A stretch of 29,553 nucleotides of DNA, taken from positions 1 to 29,553 of IMG/VR virus record IMGVR_UViG_3300008262_002649; one strand, given 5' to 3'. Both the position numbers and the translations under genes were made by a program. Below the pieces are notes generated by a model. It saw nothing but the letters and a program-made list of their open reading frames with translations, ran no database searches and was not told the origin of the DNA. Shown in pieces: positions 82 through 29,553 of this stretch. Numbering within the stretch: the first letter of the stretch is position 1; each line of letters begins with the position of its first letter. This DNA comes from a virus.

Positions 82-795
82 TTACCATTCACCAGACCAA
101 TGTTTTATATTGGCTTCAGCATAAAATTCTTTTTTTAATTTTTCCCAATCTATGTCACCATCACCTTTATAAATTATTGTATCGTGTGGTGGATGTTCTC
201 TGTATGTTTTAATAAACGGAATCTGTTCTATATATTTACGCATTTCAGTAAACTTCTCGACACCAGGATCCGTGTTAATCATTTCACCAAATAATACTGT
301 TGTTACGGCGTGCATGTATGTTTGTGGACCCAAAAAGAAAACATTCTTATGTCCTTCATATCGCCTCTGTAATATTAATTCAATTGTTTTTGCTTGAATT
401 GGATTTTTAGGTTCAGTCAACATAAAGTCTTGTGAAAAATCCCACTCCAAACAAGTCGGCAACACACACTTTATACCATCTGTTATAATTTCTGATAATG
501 GTATATTACAAAAACGGTCAATGTCCATGTAGAGACCACCTTCATTATATAATTTAAAGAGCCTCCATAGATCAGTTTTTTCAACTATATGTATATCTTT
601 AATTAAATTATAATCTCTTTTATTTAAAACATTTTTTAGATATTCATCTACATCATTATCATCATGTACTGTAACAGTCCAGTCAGGATTCAAATCAATT
701 AGTTTGCGCAAACCATTGACAATGAGTGGTGATTTACTGTCGACCACATCTTTAGTCTTCCAAGCAACGTGTGCAATTTTAGGTATGGAACTCAT
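82..795 (-). CDS. DXD glycosyltransferase (Gly_transf_sug/Och1-like)
   Basis: 237 aa. The N-terminus (M-S-S-I-P-K-I-A-H-V) matches the IPKIIHQ-type opening of sugar-transferring GT-A enzymes. GGLYMDIDRF around residues 86-95 supplies the D-x-D metal/nucleotide-sugar motif (D91, D93), preceded by the usual D-L-W-R-L-F-K-L-Y helix. It probably transfers a sugar to a phage or host glycan; donor and acceptor cannot be read from sequence. I start it at 795 because the conserved IPK motif begins two residues after this Met; a longer frame up to 882 would overlap the divergent J-domain gene. No ribosome-binding site is visible before the ATG. It is followed after 1 nt by another gene, and its start lies 13 bp from the divergent dnaJ start. 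Confidence 0.8.
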   Translation of the reverse strand: MSSIPKIAHVAWKTKDVVDSKSPLIVNGLRKLIDLNPDWTVTVHDDNDVDEYLKNVLNKRDYNLIKDIHIVEKTDLWRLFKLYNEGGLYMDIDRFCNIPLSEIITDGIKCVLPTCLEWDFSQDFMLTEPKNPIQAKTIELILQRRYEGHKNVFFLGPQTYMHAVTTVLFGEMINTDPGVEKFTEMRKYIEQIPFIKTYREHPPHDTIIYKGDGDIDWEKLKKEFYAEANIKHWSGEW

Positions 796-803
796 TATAA
801 ATA
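796..803 (+). promoter_or_regulatory. T4-type late promoter octamer for the J-domain gene
   Basis: An exact TATAAATA lies in the 13 bp between two divergent start codons. With usual T4 late-promoter geometry (octamer about -13 to -6) transcription would start near 809, which is the A of the dnaJ ATG. The transcript would then be leaderless or nearly so. The octamer is short and could be chance in A+T-rich DNA, but it is the only plus-strand copy located at a gene start. Confidence 0.5.
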
Positions 804-808
804 CATGT

Positions 809-1420
809 ATGAATAAAAATCTATATGATATCTTAGGCGTTTCTAAAAATGCAACATTTGAAGAAATTAAAGCCAAATACAAATCTCTTGCTCAACAACA
901 TCATCCAGATAAAGGTGGCGATCCTGAAATATTCAAGGAAATAAAAAACGCCTATGAAGTTTTAAGTGATCCTGTTAACAGGAAAAAATACGACACCACA
1001 GGCCACTACGAATCTGGTACAAGTCTCCGTGATCAAGCTCTAGAACAACTTAGTCGGTTATTTTTCAATTTACTTTCGAACATTAATCCTGATCTTGATG
1101 ATTTAATACTAATTATGAAAAATGAAAGCAGACGAGAAAAAGAAAACATTAATGGTAATATCAATGCTTGTAATGCACAAATGTTTAAATTAAAAAAAAT
1201 AATCAATAAAATTAAAAAGAAAAAAGATGATGGTGAAAATTTGTTAAAAATGTTTGCTGAAAACAAATTAAAAATGCATCAAAATGAGTTACAAAATTTT
1301 GTTAGGCAAATACAAATAGTTGATAGTGTAATTGAAATACTGGAAGAATACCAATATGGTGATGTGTCAATTTTACTCGAATCATTTGTAAATCCTGAAT
1401 CTGTTCCTCATAACAATTAA
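809..1420 (+). CDS. J-domain (DnaJ-like) co-chaperone
   Basis: 203 aa and the only plus-strand gene in the window. Residues about 3-68 form a full J-domain: N-L-Y-D-I-L-G-V start, HPD at 32-34, and F-K-E-I-K-N-A-Y-E-V-L-S-D-P. J-domains stimulate Hsp70 ATPase, so the likely partner is host DnaK. The Gly/Phe and zinc-finger regions of classical DnaJ are absent (class C type). The C-terminal part (about 110-185) is lysine- and asparagine-rich with predicted coiled-coil character and may bind a phage target. The start at 809 is set by the family N-terminus; in-frame Met codons upstream would run into the divergent glycosyltransferase. The stop codon abuts the CCA end of the convergent tRNA-Thr. 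Confidence 0.85.
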   Translation: MNKNLYDILGVSKNATFEEIKAKYKSLAQQHHPDKGGDPEIFKEIKNAYEVLSDPVNRKKYDTTGHYESGTSLRDQALEQLSRLFFNLLSNINPDLDDLILIMKNESRREKENINGNINACNAQMFKLKKIINKIKKKKDDGENLLKMFAENKLKMHQNELQNFVRQIQIVDSVIEILEEYQYGDVSILLESFVNPESVPHNN

Positions 1421-3407: not shown

Positions 3408-3473
3408 TTACCGACTTTTTGGATAATTCAACTGATCCCATTCCTCATCGGTTACGGGCCACCAGTTCATCAT
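3408..3473 (-). CDS. Possible 21-aa microprotein coupled to Hsp20
   Basis: A 21-codon ORF, MMNWWPVTDEEWDQLNYPKS plus a final R. Its first ATG overlaps the hsp20 stop codon (ATGA), the same coupling used by the neighbouring genes. The composition (three Trp, acidic middle, no low-complexity) looks more like a designed peptide than random A+T-rich translation. Very short, so it could be chance. Confidence 0.4.
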   Translation of the reverse strand: MMNWWPVTDEEWDQLNYPKSR

Positions 3474-3943
3474 ATACTCTTTTCTTTGATGGTAATTCTT
3501 TTAATGGTGTCTTGAGCCTGCACAAGGTTTTCTAACCACACACGCAACATACCATTTACCATTTCGGCTTGACCGATTTCAATCTTGTCAGCCAATGTAA
3601 ATGAACGTGAAAAATTACGATTAGCGATTCCTTTAAAGAGGAAATTTTCTTCTTCTTTAAGTTCATCTTCTTTTGCAGAGCCTTTGATGACCAATTTATT
3701 ACCTTCAAGAGTTACTTCAATATCAGACTTGGCGAAACCAGCAACTGCCAATTCAATGACATACTTGTTTTTGCTTACTTGTTTGATATTGTATGGGGGA
3801 TACGATGATACATTCTTGGTTACATTTTTGGTTACTTCTTCAATGTCTTTGAAGAATTTATCGTAGCCAACGGTGAATGGATCCAACGTTTTGTGAAAGT
3901 CAAATAGACTTGGTATACCACTTGGTAATAGACTTGTAGTCAT
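3470..3943 (-). CDS. hsp20: Small heat-shock protein, Hsp20/alpha-crystallin family
   Basis: 157 aa. The alpha-crystallin domain spans about 47-140: Y-P-P-Y-N-I, Y-V-I-E-L-A-V-A-G-F opening, I-E-V-T-L-E-G-N-K-L-V-I-K-G core, F-S-R-S-F-T-L-A-D strand and G-x-L motif (G-M-L-R-V-W-L). The C-terminal I-x-I anchor is present as R-I-T-I-K. Small heat-shock proteins bind unfolding proteins without ATP; in T4-like phages of cyanobacteria and SAR11 they are thought to help virion assembly or host survival under stress. AAGGAG precedes the ATG by 9 nt. Both an early-type and a late-type promoter lie upstream. Confidence 0.92.
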   Translation of the reverse strand: MTTSLLPSGIPSLFDFHKTLDPFTVGYDKFFKDIEEVTKNVTKNVSSYPPYNIKQVSKNKYVIELAVAGFAKSDIEVTLEGNKLVIKGSAKEDELKEEENFLFKGIANRNFSRSFTLADKIEIGQAEMVNGMLRVWLENLVQAQDTIKRITIKEKSI

Positions 3944-6464: not shown

Positions 6465-7136
6465 TTACTCTCCAAATTTAGAATATTTGGCTTCAGTTGC
6501 AACAAAATACTGAATAGCTTGATTCTTATTTTTAAATAAAGAAAGACCTTTGGATGAAATTTCTACATCGTAGGAACCAGGAATCATTTTTAAATTTTCA
6601 GTTAAGAAAACCATTTTAAATTTTTGGCCATTGCCAGCCGCAACTTGAATTGTATTGGTATCGGCCGATGAATCTTTGACATCACAACTTGTCAAATTAA
6701 TATCGCCACCATCAGATTCCACGACTAGGTTAGGCGACTGTAACACATTCGTGATTTTAATAATAGAATCAAAATCATCTTTGGTAAGAGCGAAAGTGAT
6801 ATCAACTGAAGGTAGTGTCAATTCTTTATCAGGTGGAATCAAAATGCTTTCTTTTTCTGTTTTGCGATACTTGGTTTTATTACGACCAAAGTTAAAGATA
6901 ATATTAATATCATCAAAATCAATATCTGTATCTTTGCCAATTGAATGAATCGTCAAAAACTTATTTAAATCATACACACAAAAATCTTGTGGAAAAGAAT
7001 CTTTCAATGTGGCTTCTGCCAAAACATTTTTTCCGGTAGAAATTGTTTTGATTTTATTGCCAGCTTTGAATTGAATGCCAGAATTTAATTTGGCAAAGTT
7101 TTGTAATACTGTTAGTGTTTCACTTGATAACTTCAT
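6465..7136 (-). CDS. 45: Sliding clamp gp45
   Basis: 223 aa, the same size class as T4 gp45 (228). N-terminal K-L-S-S-E-T-L-T-V-L-Q-N-F-A-K-L-N and the F-L-T-I-H-S segment are diagnostic, and the two-fold repeated clamp pattern fits. Trimers encircle DNA, tether the polymerase and, with gp33/gp55, activate late transcription. Start placed at 7136 because GGAG lies 7 nt upstream; the alternative Met four codons earlier overlaps this site. Confidence 0.93.
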   Translation of the reverse strand: MKLSSETLTVLQNFAKLNSGIQFKAGNKIKTISTGKNVLAEATLKDSFPQDFCVYDLNKFLTIHSIGKDTDIDFDDINIIFNFGRNKTKYRKTEKESILIPPDKELTLPSVDITFALTKDDFDSIIKITNVLQSPNLVVESDGGDINLTSCDVKDSSADTNTIQVAAGNGQKFKMVFLTENLKMIPGSYDVEISSKGLSLFKNKNQAIQYFVATEAKYSKFGE

Positions 7137-7156
7137 TGTTTTCTCCATTATAAAAA

Positions 7157-7516
7157 TTACTGCTTCGAATATATTGTATCATGTTCATACAGAAACATCA
7201 AGCAGCACATTGCGTGTGCCAAGTGATGTTTACCAGATTCGGGATCATTAATTTCTCCTTCTTTCCAAGCCCACAAATGCCGTTGCATTGCATCAAAATA
7301 CCTACGCTTAGAATCTGGTACATACTTCCAATTATCTGGTTCATATTTCTCTGCACCAAACGTAAGTATTTCAACCGTTGCTTTTAGTGCTGCTGGCGGT
7401 AATAATCCATATTGTAATTTACCGCCATCAAATTTTCGGCCACCAGTGGTTGCATTTTGTGAAGCTCTTACTTCATCAACAATCTTATAACCAAAAGGAC
7501 CACTCATATCACTCAT
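7157..7516 (-). CDS. DUF5664 family (putative dATP/dGTP diphosphohydrolase)
   Basis: 119 aa. Carries the family string: G-G-R-K-F-D-G-G-K, L-L-P-P-A-A-L, L-T-F-G-A-E-K-Y, N-W, R-Y-F-D-A-M-Q-R-H-L-W-A-W, and H-L-A-H-A-M-C-C-L-M-F-L. The alpha-helical E/D/H arrangement suggests an all-alpha NTP pyrophosphatase-like fold; related phage proteins act on dATP/dGTP. It could shape the nucleotide pool during replication. It overlaps the upstream glycosyltransferase by one base (TAATG). Confidence 0.8.
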   Translation of the reverse strand: MSDMSGPFGYKIVDEVRASQNATTGGRKFDGGKLQYGLLPPAALKATVEILTFGAEKYEPDNWKYVPDSKRRYFDAMQRHLWAWKEGEINDPESGKHHLAHAMCCLMFLYEHDTIYSKQ

Positions 7517-8768: not shown

Positions 8769-10034
8769 TTATCTGCCAACTTGTGGCAAATACTTGGCCT
8801 TGGTTTTTTCCCAAGATAAATCAATTAAATCGTCATAGAAAAGTGTTTCATATGAAACCTTGTTTTTCTTTTGTAGTTGCCGAATACGACCTTTGGCATA
8901 TTTGGTTTTCCAAATATTACTCAAAGCTTCTTCACTGGTATCAAATGATTTCACCAGTTCATCTTCTGTAATCTCCTTACGGAGAAATTCATTAGTATTA
9001 TTATAGAGAGGACTAAAATAGATGCCTCTCTGATGTTCAGTACGAATCAATTCTTTTGGTATCTGTAACTTAGAATAAGCAAAGTTTAATGAACGATTCT
9101 TGTGGTCACGTTTAAGTGGCAATCCTTGAGTGTTCTTGGCTTCCCACCATTCAAAATATTTACGAGTATGATTTTCTTTAATCCAATCAAATACAATTCT
9201 TTTGGTTGCTCTTGATGGTTCAAAGGCAACTGAACCTGATGAAAACCCCATTGGATTCCAATGTTCAAGTCCATCATACTGTGATAATCCGCCGGCTTTT
9301 GTTTTACCATACAATGATGTTGTGGTAACTCCAGCAAGAACATCACCATACTGTCGCTTCCAATCTTTCTGAACTGTATCAGATAAACACATCAATGCCA
9401 GTAATTTGCCACCCATGTAATTAAAACCAAGTGGTTGTAACGGAACGATGGTGGATCCAATTGCCGTATGATTAATCATATGTTGCTGTGTCTTAACATC
9501 TCTCGACCATCCGATTGCATTATCTCTCGGAGTCAAGTCCAGAAAGTCTGAGGAGATACAGATAACACCAAGATATTTGCCTGATACTTTATCGGTAAGA
9601 ATGTAAAATAGATTACGACCAATGTTAGAATTGTTCTTCATTGTGGAAGAAAAGGTACGAATGGCATTCCATCTCTCTGCTTCAGGTCCATTTGAAAGAA
9701 CCATAATTGGTTGTAACTTTTCATAATCATCCGGATCTTTTGGTGTCCAGAAATTGGCTTTAACTTCGTTAATCATATCTCTTTGGCTAGGATCAACCAT
9801 TTGCATTTCTTGACCCCACAAAGTGGAAACTTCGTGTTGTGGATATCGTTCTTTTACTTCACACCATTTTTGATATAAAGTATACTCACGTACATCCATT
9901 TGAGAGGCATATGTTAAGTCCTCAATTAGGACTTTCTTCATTACATCTTCATCAATGTGTTCAAATTTTTCAGCAGGATTTTTTTCTTGCCAAGTTTGCC
10001 ATTGCTCTTCTACATATTCAATAGGAGTTGCCAT
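8769..10034 (-). CDS. DruA-like (DUF4338-like) protein
   Basis: 421 aa, near DruA length. LGVICISSD (155-163), R-D-N-A-I-G-W (170-176), a G-K-L-L-A-L segment near 209-214, D-W-K-R-Q-Y-G-D (224-231) and G-V-T-T-T-S-L-Y-G parallel the DUF4338 order: L-G-x-x-x-x-S, R-D-x-x-I-G-W, L-A-S-x-x-L, D-W-x-x-R-Y-G, then E-T-x-V. DruA is part of the Druantia defence system in bacteria; its chemistry is not established, and the role of a phage copy is unknown. The gene overlaps peptide deformylase by one base and follows gp46/gp47. The assignment is from remembered motif order, not from a search. Confidence 0.5.
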   Translation of the reverse strand: MATPIEYVEEQWQTWQEKNPAEKFEHIDEDVMKKVLIEDLTYASQMDVREYTLYQKWCEVKERYPQHEVSTLWGQEMQMVDPSQRDMINEVKANFWTPKDPDDYEKLQPIMVLSNGPEAERWNAIRTFSSTMKNNSNIGRNLFYILTDKVSGKYLGVICISSDFLDLTPRDNAIGWSRDVKTQQHMINHTAIGSTIVPLQPLGFNYMGGKLLALMCLSDTVQKDWKRQYGDVLAGVTTTSLYGKTKAGGLSQYDGLEHWNPMGFSSGSVAFEPSRATKRIVFDWIKENHTRKYFEWWEAKNTQGLPLKRDHKNRSLNFAYSKLQIPKELIRTEHQRGIYFSPLYNNTNEFLRKEITEDELVKSFDTSEEALSNIWKTKYAKGRIRQLQKKNKVSYETLFYDDLIDLSWEKTKAKYLPQVGR

Positions 10035-10606
10035 TATTTCATTTTCATCTTTTTCATTAATTTACTTCTTTTTTGTAAACCAGATTGCAATGCCATTGGT
10101 TTAGTTTTACTAGTATACACTATTCCATTCATGTGGTCAAGCTCATGTTGAAAACAACGAGCAGATATGCCAGAAAAAGTGGCACCTTTCCATTCTCCAT
10201 TAAAATCTTGGTAACGAACTCCTATTTCTGCCGGACGAGTAATTCTTAAACCTAATAATGGAAAAGAAAGGCAACCTTCAATCATGTGGTTTTCTTCTTT
10301 TGATATATTAATAATTTCAGGATTAAAGAATGCCACATAATCATCATTGGTACCCATTACAAAAACTCTATATTTAAATCCGCATTGGTTGGCAGACAAC
10401 CCATAACCACGATAATATTTACAACTTTCTACCAAAGTAGAAGCAAACAAACTAGGATTAACCGGCGGATTATTAAAATCAAATTCTGGCATAACTTCAG
10501 TTAAAATTAAATCGGTTTCTGGCACCAATTTAAAAATGTTAATTTGTTTTTTTGGTTCAGAAATTTTTACCGCATCTTCGGTATTAAACGTAATTATATC
10601 ACTCAT
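10034..10606 (-). CDS. def: Peptide deformylase
   Basis: 190 aa with all three motifs: G-Y-G-L-S-A-N-Q (68-74 region, for GxGxAAxQ), E-G-C-L-S (110-114, C112 metal ligand) and Q-H-E-L-D-H (153-158, H154 and H158 ligands, E155 catalytic). It removes the N-formyl group from new proteins. Phage deformylases are frequent in marine T4-like viruses and may favour turnover of phage or photosystem proteins. An N-terminal extension of about 40 residues precedes the catalytic core. The start overlaps gp46 by 4 nt. Confidence 0.92.
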   Translation of the reverse strand: MSDIITFNTEDAVKISEPKKQINIFKLVPETDLILTEVMPEFDFNNPPVNPSLFASTLVESCKYYRGYGLSANQCGFKYRVFVMGTNDDYVAFFNPEIINISKEENHMIEGCLSFPLLGLRITRPAEIGVRYQDFNGEWKGATFSGISARCFQHELDHMNGIVYTSKTKPMALQSGLQKRSKLMKKMKMK

Positions 10607-13391: not shown

Positions 13392-13808
13392 TTATATAAT
13401 ACTTTCTATACCAAATTTTTCTTTTGCCACTTTATTAGTTTCTGGATGACCAGCACTTCGGCAATCAAATTGTCTACACGATCTTGGTCGATGGTCATAG
13501 ATTGAACACTGGCCATCAATAAACATTGAACATCCTCCAGTAGGAGATTTTTTAAACATTGCCGCAAGTGGTCCAACATTAGGATTTTCCAAAATCATGT
13601 TTTTATCTGGTTGTATAAGACTTAGAGGATAACGGCCTGACGATACTTCTTCAGGAGTTAAAAATGGTGTTAATATTTCACAACATCTTGTACAGCTTCC
13701 ACAAGGAACATCAGATATGGGAGCGCCGCTATCAATTGATGTTAAATTAATATTAATAATTTTATACTTATTTTCTTTCAATATCTTCTTCCTCACATTT
13801 TTCACCAT
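13392..13808 (-). CDS. YkgJ-family cysteine-cluster protein
   Basis: Up to 138 aa. Cysteines are arranged as C-G-S-C-T-R-C-C near residue 36, then G-C-S-M-F and Q-C-S-I-Y-D-H-R-P-R-S-C-R-Q-F-D-C, the pattern of YkgJ/UPF0153 proteins thought to bind zinc or an Fe-S cluster. Function is unknown. The ATG at 13808 overlaps the upstream cupin gene by 41 nt and has no clear ribosome site; a TTG at 13779-13781, preceded by GAGGAAG, is an alternative start that would remove nine residues. The cysteine region is unaffected by this choice. Confidence 0.78.
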   Translation of the reverse strand: MVKNVRKKILKENKYKIININLTSIDSGAPISDVPCGSCTRCCEILTPFLTPEEVSSGRYPLSLIQPDKNMILENPNVGPLAAMFKKSPTGGCSMFIDGQCSIYDHRPRSCRQFDCRSAGHPETNKVAKEKFGIESII

Positions 13809-14556
13809 ACTGAATCTCTACAATTTTTAAAGGTTCATTTGAATTGTTTTGTAATTGGTGCCACACACCAATTGGTACATGTACAGTATTATGTTTATAG
13901 TATGTATTTTTTGATTTTGAACTAGGTCTTTGTTCGATGACGGTTGCTTCACCTTCAACAATATGCCAATGTTCATTTCTATATTGATGCTTTTGCATTG
14001 TTAAAGATTGACCAGGATCCACAATTAATTCCTTAACTTTTGTATTTGGTGTTTCATATAATACACGATAGAATCCCCAAGGTCTTTTTGTTTTAGGAGA
14101 TTTCCATTCGTTCAATAAATTTGAAGAAGAATTTAGCTTGATTTGACCACCAACACCAAAAACAAATTCAACACCATCAACAGACATTTCTGGTATGTTG
14201 TCTTTAGTTCTATCACCGCCATTTGCGAATATGAATATAGTATTGTTATCACGCCATGTTTTCTTTACTGTATTCAATAGTTTAATTGCACTATCATCTG
14301 TGTCGTCAAAATTAACAACATAGTCAACAGATTTAAGTGCTTTTATTATTTTAGACCGGTCGTGCCAATTCATAAAGGCTTTGCCTTTTTTACGAATCAA
14401 CCACTCATCACTATTAATACCAACAACAAGAATGTCGCCAAGGCTTTTGGCTTCATTCAAATAAGCAATATGGCCAGAATGTAGTGGATCAAATCCACCA
14501 GATACAACAATAATCTTTTTAGTTTCGGTTTGGTTTTCTGTGGTCAATGTTGTCAT
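13768..14556 (-). CDS. Nucleotidyltransferase-cupin fusion protein
   Basis: 262 aa in two parts. Residues about 14-150 are a cytidylyltransferase-like fold: V-S-G-G-F-D-P-L-H-S-G-H with the H-x-G-H motif (H26, H29), and an S-S-S-N motif near 143-146. Residues about 158-252 are a cupin like the C-terminal phosphomannose isomerase part of ManC: R-P-W-G-F-Y, Q-K-H-Q-Y-R-N-E-H-W-H-I-V-E-G (H190, H196, H198) and H233. It probably makes or modifies an activated sugar or polyol phosphate, matching the two glycosyltransferases elsewhere. The substrate cannot be read. It starts inside the end of the 52-aa gene. Confidence 0.82.
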   Translation of the reverse strand: MTTLTTENQTETKKIIVVSGGFDPLHSGHIAYLNEAKSLGDILVVGINSDEWLIRKKGKAFMNWHDRSKIIKALKSVDYVVNFDDTDDSAIKLLNTVKKTWRDNNTIFIFANGGDRTKDNIPEMSVDGVEFVFGVGGQIKLNSSSNLLNEWKSPKTKRPWGFYRVLYETPNTKVKELIVDPGQSLTMQKHQYRNEHWHIVEGEATVIEQRPSSKSKNTYYKHNTVHVPIGVWHQLQNNSNEPLKIVEIQYGEKCEEEDIERK

Positions 14557-14677
14557 AATATTTAATTTCCAATATAGAATCTATGGGTTGTTTAATACCA
14601 AATACAGCCACTTCTTCAAATTTATCAAATTCTTTTGTCATAATATAATCTTCTAATAAGTAGGTTACCTTATACAT
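14519..14677 (-). CDS. Small protein, MYKVTY paralog B (52 aa)
   Basis: A 52-codon ORF with AGGAGA at good spacing before the ATG. It begins MYKVTYLLEDY and contains S-I-L-E-I-K-Y-Y-D-N. Its start (MYKVTY) and its E-I-K-[YF]-Y-D segment match the gene immediately upstream (14693-14866), so the two are tandem paralogs. Its last 38 nt overlap the nucleotidyltransferase-cupin gene in another frame. Function unknown. Confidence 0.65.
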   Translation of the reverse strand: MYKVTYLLEDYIMTKEFDKFEEVAVFGIKQPIDSILEIKYYDNIDHRKPNRN

Positions 14678-14692
14678 TATATTCTCCTAAAA

Positions 14693-14866
14693 TTATATGT
14701 TTACCGTTGGTGTATTAGGATCATTCTCATCGTAGAATTTAATTTCAAATAAACAATCTTTGTTTATTTTTTTGGCAAAGTCCAGTGACTCTCTATGAGT
14801 TTTAAACCATTTAAACAGTAAAACATCTTTTTTATCCAAAGCTGGATAATATGTAACTTTGTACAT
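14693..14866 (-). CDS. Small protein, MYKVTY paralog A (57 aa)
   Basis: A 57-codon ORF beginning MYKVTYYPAL and containing L-F-E-I-K-F-Y-D-E-N-D. AGGAGAG, which forms the last codons of gp55, is its ribosome site, so its translation is probably coupled to the late sigma factor. Tandem paralog of the downstream 52-aa gene. Predicted alpha/beta, soluble. Function unknown. Confidence 0.75.
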   Translation of the reverse strand: MYKVTYYPALDKKDVLLFKWFKTHRESLDFAKKINKDCLFEIKFYDENDPNTPTVNI

Positions 14867-20495: not shown

Positions 20496-21683
20496 TTATT
20501 TGTTTACAGTTTGTGAAATTGCTTTCGAGTAAACTTCCATTAAAGGATCGGAAGATTTTGCAACCTTCTTTTCTTCTTCAATTTGGACTTCATCATCCAA
20601 AGCAGAACTATCAGCAGAAACTACTGGATTTTTGAAATAAGATTCTTTCAATGTTTCCATTTTTTCTGTAAATTCATCCTCAGTAGTAAACTCAATACTC
20701 TCTGCGAGTGATTTCATTTTCTCTACTTGGGTCTGCGTTAGGCCTTCACACGCTGCGTAAATAGCCTCAAACTTTTTGTGCTCATTGAGTTCTTTTTTCA
20801 ACTCAATAGCAGATTTGATTTGCTCATTGTAAGCTTCTTCAAGTTCTTCAACCTTAGCAGTAAGCTCTTCAACAACATCCACTTTTTCTTCTGGAATGTC
20901 AATGTAATGATCTTCAAACAAATCTTTTAAACCGGAAATAAAATCTTCAACGATTTCGGCACGGAGACCTTTTTCGATGGCAATTTCATTATCTTTAACC
21001 CATTCTTCAACCATGTAATTGAGGTAATCATCAACTTTGGTGGCCATTTCTTCTTTAATTTCTTCAATGGCGGCTTCGAATTGTTCTGTTAAAGCTTCTT
21101 CTGCTTCAGCAATAACTTCTTCAGCACGAGCAATAACTGCTGCTTCAAAAATTGTTGTTGCCTTAGCAATAAATTCTTCAGAAAGATTTTCGCCAGAAAT
21201 TAAAGCATCAATATCTTCCTTCATTTTTTCTTTTTTGATCATTTTTTTAATCATGGCTTTATCTTCTTTCTCATCTTCGTGGCCTTCTTTTTCTGCTTCA
21301 GCGATAACTTCGTCATCATCTTCTGTTTCTTCGTATTGCTGAACACCAACAGAACCTTTATTTAAAGGCATTTGATTTTTGCCAGTTTTGCCTTCTGGAT
21401 GCTCAACAGAACCTTGCTCAGCAGGTTGACCTTTGAGTTTTTTGGCTGGCTCAGAACCTACAGGAGGTGTTGCACCAGGAGGAGTTGCTGTAGGCGCTCC
21501 TTTGTATGCATCTGGACCAGAATCCGTTGTTTTGGTAACTTGTGTACCTATGTCACCAACTTCTTTGGTACCATAAGCTACATCACCAGCTAGTTTTTGT
21601 GGTTTATCTTGGCCAGATTTTTTGCTTGATACTGTACCAGCAAGAATCTCTTTAGCGGCTTCGGACAGATTAAATTTTCCCAT
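20496..21683 (-). CDS. 22: Prohead core scaffold gp22
   Basis: 395 aa, longer than T4 gp22 (269). The N-terminal ~130 residues are low-complexity (Gly/Pro/Lys/Thr, then acidic E-T-E-D-D-D-E), and the rest is strongly acidic, Ala/Glu-rich coiled-coil, as expected for the internal scaffold that gp21 degrades. I-A-E-A-E, L-S-E and I-E-E repeats supply potential protease sites. An exact late octamer lies 29 nt upstream and AAGGAG precedes the ATG. The extended N-terminus is unusual compared with T4. Confidence 0.88.
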   Translation of the reverse strand: MGKFNLSEAAKEILAGTVSSKKSGQDKPQKLAGDVAYGTKEVGDIGTQVTKTTDSGPDAYKGAPTATPPGATPPVGSEPAKKLKGQPAEQGSVEHPEGKTGKNQMPLNKGSVGVQQYEETEDDDEVIAEAEKEGHEDEKEDKAMIKKMIKKEKMKEDIDALISGENLSEEFIAKATTIFEAAVIARAEEVIAEAEEALTEQFEAAIEEIKEEMATKVDDYLNYMVEEWVKDNEIAIEKGLRAEIVEDFISGLKDLFEDHYIDIPEEKVDVVEELTAKVEELEEAYNEQIKSAIELKKELNEHKKFEAIYAACEGLTQTQVEKMKSLAESIEFTTEDEFTEKMETLKESYFKNPVVSADSSALDDEVQIEEEKKVAKSSDPLMEVYSKAISQTVNK

Positions 21684-27832: not shown

Positions 27833-29359
27833 TTATAGATCCTTGAACCATTTGGTGGTATAATTTGCATAAGTGTCGCCTCCATTAGCAACTTCCCATA
27901 AATCTCCACCTTCAATCATAAAATCTGGTTTTGTACCATCATCAATAATAGGTTCAGGTAGAACCTCTTCATCAATCTGATTCATATTTTCCAATTGAAT
28001 CTGTTTTCTTAAATCATGGTTAACTATTTCTCTGAAGTATTTTTGAGTGGCAGCCCAAGCAAAAATAACCAAAGTCATCACATTGTCATCATTGGCACCA
28101 TCGGCTGCAGCAAAAGAGGTCTTATATTGTTCAAAAGTGGTTAACTCTGAGTAGGTATCAAAGTCATTAATTAATAACTTATCACCTTCAATCAAAGTTT
28201 TTAAGTTGGAACAACCAATTTGTTTTACCTGTGGTGACATTTTAAGTCCCATCTGTACACCTCTGGCAAAACCAGCCGATAATTGTTGTGGTTTTTTGTT
28301 ACCAGTAAACACTTTTAACAAGTTTTCATACTCAAGGTCTTGGTGTAATATATCTGCCACCTGTGGATTGTTATTAATCTCTACCAATACATAGGCATCA
28401 TTGTACAGTTTGGCTGCATTATATATTACCGTTGGAAACAATAGTGGTGATATTGAAGAACTATTGTAGGTGGCTACCTGTTTGTATGGTGTTGTTGATA
28501 TATCTATTACCGAAAATGCCGAGGAGTCTAAATTTTTACCTTCAGACACATCCACACAAATACAATACAAGTGGTCTGAGTTGTGTTCAGTACCTTCTTT
28601 AATTGGATTTTCATAAATTTTCATCTTATCGTGGTCGGCAATTGGATTGATATATCTCAATTGTTGTAGTTTGTAACCAGAAATAAGGGTGTTGGACGAA
28701 CCTAAGAATTCGGTTTCAAACTCCTGTGAGAATTGCCGTTCTGAGGTATTACGAATTGTTTCTTCTTTCCAAACATCATCACGACCTGGCACCATTGACC
28801 AATGAATCTGAAAGTTTTTATAGTTGTTTCGGCCTTCAATTGAATCCATCCATAGTTTATAGAATAGATTCATACCATTTGGTGTAGAAACAATAATAAT
28901 CTTTGAGGACTTACCAGATGAGATTACCGGATAAACGGAGTTAAAGAACTCATTGGCAATGTTGTTTGGTACGAAAGCGAATTCGTCTAAGAATACAATG
29001 TTAAACGAACCCCCTCGGATCGCTGAGGAACTGGTGGAGGCCGCAATAACCTTAGACCCGTTCTCTAGTTCTACGTTACCCTTGTTCCATGTCACCACGC
29101 CTTGTTGGAGCCATTGTGGTAAATTTTCATATGCCAGTTGATATTTGGACAAAATATCACGAGCCAGAAATGGCCACATATCAAAATTGATTAGACCTTG
29201 GTCCACGTTAACAATTTTAATATATTTTCTACAAAAATGTATTGGATCTTTAGAACATTTTATGTATTCTTGTACTTGTTCTTCCGTATATTCGTGTTCG
29301 ACACCAACTTTTTTTAATAACGGATTGTCACGATAAGAATCTTTATTTTGTATGGACAT
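27833..29359 (-). CDS. 17: Terminase large subunit gp17, missing the Walker A segment
   Basis: 508 aa (T4 610). N-terminal Y-I-K-C-S-K-D-P-I-H-F, then L-I-N-F-D-M-W-P-F; at about residue 64 it jumps to L-A-R-D-I-L-S-K-Y-Q-L-A-Y-E-N-L-P. In T4 gp17 and relatives some 50-60 residues lie between these, including the C-K-x-P-R-Q-x-G-K-[ST]-T Walker A motif; none of it is here. Walker B I-V-F-L-D-E-F (121-127), coupling motif S-T-P-N-G (158-162) and nuclease acids D270, E327 and D424/D425 are present. As written it should not hydrolyse ATP. The frame stays open, so this is an in-frame loss or an assembly gap. One-base overlap with gp16. Confidence 0.92.
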   Translation of the reverse strand: MSIQNKDSYRDNPLLKKVGVEHEYTEEQVQEYIKCSKDPIHFCRKYIKIVNVDQGLINFDMWPFLARDILSKYQLAYENLPQWLQQGVVTWNKGNVELENGSKVIAASTSSSAIRGGSFNIVFLDEFAFVPNNIANEFFNSVYPVISSGKSSKIIIVSTPNGMNLFYKLWMDSIEGRNNYKNFQIHWSMVPGRDDVWKEETIRNTSERQFSQEFETEFLGSSNTLISGYKLQQLRYINPIADHDKMKIYENPIKEGTEHNSDHLYCICVDVSEGKNLDSSAFSVIDISTTPYKQVATYNSSSISPLLFPTVIYNAAKLYNDAYVLVEINNNPQVADILHQDLEYENLLKVFTGNKKPQQLSAGFARGVQMGLKMSPQVKQIGCSNLKTLIEGDKLLINDFDTYSELTTFEQYKTSFAAADGANDDNVMTLVIFAWAATQKYFREIVNHDLRKQIQLENMNQIDEEVLPEPIIDDGTKPDFMIEGGDLWEVANGGDTYANYTTKWFKDL

Positions 29360-29553
29360 TACTCTTTACCTTTAATGAGTTTATTCAACTCAGCGGTAGA
29401 ACCAATAAAAATGGCTTTGTCTATATTAGTACCAGCATTTTTCTTTTTATCTTCATCCATCTCACGCATTTGTTTTTGTATTGCCAACAACTCTTTATTG
29501 GCATCTACCACATTTTTGAGTAGTGTGCCATATACTTCAAAAGCACGGGGATG
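29359..29553 (-). CDS. 16: Terminase small subunit gp16, C-terminal part
   Basis: The last 64 codons of a gene that continues past the right edge. H-P-R-A-F-E-V-Y-G-T-L-L-K, a coiled-coil L-A-I-Q-K-Q-M-R-E-M-D, and N-I-D-K-A-I-F-I-G-S-T-A-E-L-N are typical of the C-terminus of gp16 in T4-like phages. gp16 recognises phage DNA and stimulates gp17 ATPase. TAATG overlap with gp17 indicates coupled translation. Confidence 0.85.
   Translation of the reverse strand, partial: HPRAFEVYGTLLKNVVDANKELLAIQKQMREMDEDKKKNAGTNIDKAIFIGSTAELNKLIKGKE

Follow-up and report, generated by a model that had tools for sequence, protein, structure and literature searches.

A T4-type large terminase gene without its P-loop in a metagenomic phage contig: probably a local assembly error

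Does a T4-like phage make a large terminase (TerL) without the Walker A motif, or is the motif missing from one metagenomic contig only? The question is raised by a 29,553-nt contig from IMG/VR (IMGVR_UViG_3300008262_002649; this whole stretch is called the window here), in which an ORF of 508 aa with an ATG start (27833-29359, minus strand) reads ...INFDMWPF followed directly by LARDILSKYQLAYENLPQW..., with no Walker A in the protein. The loss of the P-loop through an in-frame gap, from FDMWPF straight to LARDIL, had been noticed in a sequence-only reading of the window and was confirmed on this ORF. That reading had placed the gap at about 29167 and its size at about 50-60 residues; alignment to L002, a near-identical intact locus, put the breakpoint at 29167/29168 and the loss at exactly 156 bp, or 52 codons. 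The features at this end of the window are:

27833..29359, minus strand: large terminase gene of the T4 gp17 type, shortened internally by an in-frame gap of 156 bp, so that 508 aa are encoded in place of 560
29165..29170, minus strand: the two junction codons (breakpoint 29167/29168, microhomology of 2 nt), where 52 codons or 156 bp, RQVGKT among them, are missing
29359..29553, minus strand: 3' portion of the gene upstream, which shares one base with the TerL start and runs off the window; from its position presumably gp16, the small terminase

The window TerL has 2,517 matching records in the phage collection; the best 30 of these 2,517 are from cyanophages, at approximately 48-53% identity, and most of the rows among these 30 are annotated as terminase. 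Both the N-terminal ATPase domain (PF03237) and the C-terminal RNase H-like nuclease domain (PF17289) were found in the window protein above the curated cut-offs of Pfam. The Terminase_6N match begins at profile position 56, compared to position 5 in the protein of the intact sister locus L002, and Terminase_6C is matched over the same profile positions in both. Outside the gap, TerL of the window differs from that of the near-identical contig G001 by two synonymous substitutions. The remainder of the gene thus looks normal; the sequence-only reading had described it as conserved. When the intact sister protein was compared with the PDB, the T4 gp17 structures 3ezk (E=2.1e-95) and 3cpe (E=4.8e-94) were the best sequence matches; T4 gp17 has the same two domains in the same order, and the sister protein aligns with 3ezk over its residues 6-501 of 560, Walker A (RQ-GKT) included. 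In contrast to the two sister copies, the window copy lacks the 52 residues around the P-loop and with them the Walker A of a T4 gp17-type large terminase. On these alignments the defect would belong to the window contig, and need not extend to the phage itself.

Several other genes of the window were recognized. A 421-aa protein of this T4-like phage (8769-10034, minus strand) matches the Pfam family DruA (Druantia protein) with E=1.6e-19, and is adjoined by a peptide deformylase (10034-10606, minus strand; E=1.4e-32), a gene known from marine cyanophages. The same contig encodes a DnaJ-domain protein (704-1420, plus strand; E=2e-22), whose gene runs counter to the majority of the long ORFs, and an Hsp20-type protein (3470-3943, minus strand). 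At 13768-14556 (minus strand), one ORF combines a cytidylyltransferase-like domain with a mannose-6-phosphate-isomerase C-terminal (cupin) domain.

Two near-identical contigs from other IMG/VR assemblies allow the gap to be compared directly. G001 (IMGVR_UViG_3300008261_000109, 62,059 bp) matches the entire window and contains L002; G002 (IMGVR_UViG_3300008263_000022, 89,563 bp) matches positions 1-29224 and contains the corresponding locus L007. Both are colinear with the window at an identity of about 99.8-99.9%, with 29 mismatches in 14,612 bp, 9 in 14,363 bp and 1 in 387 bp for G001, and 35 in 14,804 bp, 6 plus one gap in 14,364 bp and 0 in 58 bp for G002. From this similarity we infer that the three contigs represent the same phage. 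Both sisters carry extra DNA with RQVGKT between window positions 29167 and 29168 (measured on L002 of G001 as the 156 bp, or residues 65-116 of the intact 560-aa protein), so that the TerL gap is absent from 2/2 near-identical contigs of other assemblies, as is looked for in an artefact. A 33-mer across the intact right boundary retrieved exactly these two contigs from the viral_contigs collection. The sister sequences had come in several separate stretches; a second retrieval, which covered each breakpoint region of G001 and the end of G002 in one piece, was concordant.

Many of the differences between the window and one or both sisters are clustered in short patches (window 115-532, 2227-2248 and 6810-7310), the rest being near-identical, which suggests either recombination tracts or assemblies that mix strains. 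Near the junction, three window positions (29012, 29063 and 29500) have a base other than that of G001, and the first two also a base other than that of G002. Among loci matched by 9-base flanks, the window base at 29063 is common (32/34), but at 29012 and 29500 it was seen in 0/6 and 0/4 matched loci, respectively; a strain chimera at the junction is not claimed.

At the junction itself, the two blocks that match between the window and L002 abut at 29167/29168, with 2 nt in common, and the clean join contains no N. Within positions 440-770 of L002, no direct repeat families of at least 8 nt were reported, and seven inverted-repeat pairs were. Three of these pairs bracket or overlap the segment: an imperfect pair of 24 nt (75%), an imperfect pair of 14 nt (86%; L002 504-517 and 693-706, flanking the segment) and a pair of 10 nt. 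With a 2-nt microhomology and no such direct repeat family reported, a repeat-mediated deletion was set aside; the inverted repeats are kept as a lead for a real deletion, as those that flank the segment could promote a real polymerase skip. The sequence-only reading had regarded the in-frame state of the gap as striking. One in three random single deletions would keep the frame, and the open frame is therefore unremarkable and carries little weight as evidence.

A scan of viral contigs confirmed 556 relatives, of which the best 80 were kept and examined. Aligning the gene to gp17 of related phages had been proposed in the sequence-only reading, and among these best 80 of 556 the RQVGKT motif lies in the matched stretch of 74; in the other six (L051, L052, L058, L071, L076 and L080) the contig begins downstream of the motif, so that 0/80 of the kept relatives were seen to lack the P-loop. 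A degenerate pattern of the joined codons, specific to this join, had 0 matches in viral_contigs, from which records very near the window may be omitted; with that proviso, a shared natural variant was set aside.

The survey also shows where contigs of other assemblies stop. Nine of the 80 loci have their contig start between codons 40 and 179 of the intact gene, four of these at codons 128-133 and hence 12-17 codons beyond the right breakpoint, and G002 stops at window position 29224, 57 bases beyond the left breakpoint. Because the list of 80 loci is ranked by match, and contigs that begin further into the gene are thereby disfavoured, we treat the clustering of contig starts as supporting but not decisive. 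Conservation of the DNA explains the breaks only in part. Of 28 blocks of 60 bp compared in 70 full-length relatives, the one that holds the P-loop has the highest conservation (0.928), and the two that directly follow the right breakpoint score 0.912, but the blocks at 541-660 are equally high (0.922 and 0.916) and those at the two breakpoints are unexceptional (0.886 and 0.873).

Over the span of the window, exactly one short loss is private to each of the three contigs: the window lacks 156 bp, G001 172 bp and G002 13 bp beside an N. The latter two are located at:

14634..14805, no strand assigned: 172 bp present in the window and G002, absent from G001; a private short loss
20999..21013, minus strand: 13 bases lost beside an N in G002, breaking the frame, inside ORF 20496-21683 (which we take from its position to be gp22); the window is identical to G001 here

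The flanks in G001 match perfectly around the 172-bp loss, G002 is identical to the window at 14634-14805, and at least 139 of the 172 bp are present in the fetched stretch of a 96%-identical contig (G003). Diverged direct repeats about 190 bp apart occur in this region, and the loss in G001 could be natural in origin. The 13-base loss in G002 looks like a scaffolding scar.

We consider it probable, at roughly 0.83, that the TerL gap is a local assembly or scaffolding error and that the large terminase of the phage is of the ordinary T4 type and has a normal P-loop. The 156 bp would have been dropped in assembly and the two flanks joined; the loss presumably arose there and not in a DNA molecule. 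This reading is favoured because near-identical contigs from two other assemblies carry the segment at the same place and because every one of the three contigs shows a private loss, and it is supported by the contigs of other assemblies that stop near the gap. Of the four explanations offered in the sequence-only reading, a collapsed or recombined assembly is thus the best supported, and a P-loop from elsewhere is unsupported. Co-existing viruses with similar regions can give rise to shorter or chimeric contigs, according to passages of PMC5610896. The window resembles short-read metagenome misassembly among related strains in that the loss occurs in one assembly only and near the ends of other contigs, although the passages of that paper on misassembly describe no small internal loss like this one. 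Against an assembly error, the junction has no N, and the 2 nt shared would be too little for a k-mer overlap, so that a chimeric read or a join of trimmed ends must be supposed; moreover, the 172-bp loss in G001 is perhaps natural, and the inverted repeats around the TerL segment could speak for a real event.

The clean join and these inverted repeats are what one might expect of a real deletion in some genomes of the sampled population, a packaging-defective variant for which intact relatives supply the motor, and the near-identical intact genomes in other assemblies could complement it. Such a variant would probably need to outnumber the intact form to be assembled, its junction pattern is unmatched in the other viral contigs (those very near the window perhaps excepted), and the private short losses of the two sisters, of which one adjoins an N, speak for assembly. 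A real deletion is on this balance unlikely, and a natural cheater, that is, a defective T4-like genome without a working packaging ATPase that persists on the motor of co-infecting intact siblings, is slightly less likely still. A working terminase without a P-loop of its own, with the P-loop supplied by another protein, would fit the open frame and the conservation of the remainder of the protein, but in both near-identical contigs the P-loop sits where it normally does, and T4 requires the catalytic residues of its ATPase centre, as stated in passages of PMC3012670. The sequence-only reading had also suggested a search for a separate P-loop ORF resembling the missing segment; none was found within the 29,553-nt window. 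A tblastn search of the window with the 52 missing residues of L002 gave three hits, the best of which (E 3.8) is in a stop-containing frame; the missing DNA shares four 12-mers and no 15-mer with the window on either strand. A P-loop elsewhere in the window was accordingly rejected, and we hold a working motor of this kind to be highly improbable.

The case for an assembly error carries a caution: when a single metagenomic contig lacks an essential motif through an in-frame loss, the cause can lie in the assembly, and such losses can be tested cheaply by setting the contig against near-identical ones assembled elsewhere. If the deletion were nevertheless true, the window would represent a naturally occurring T4-like phage variant that is defective in packaging.
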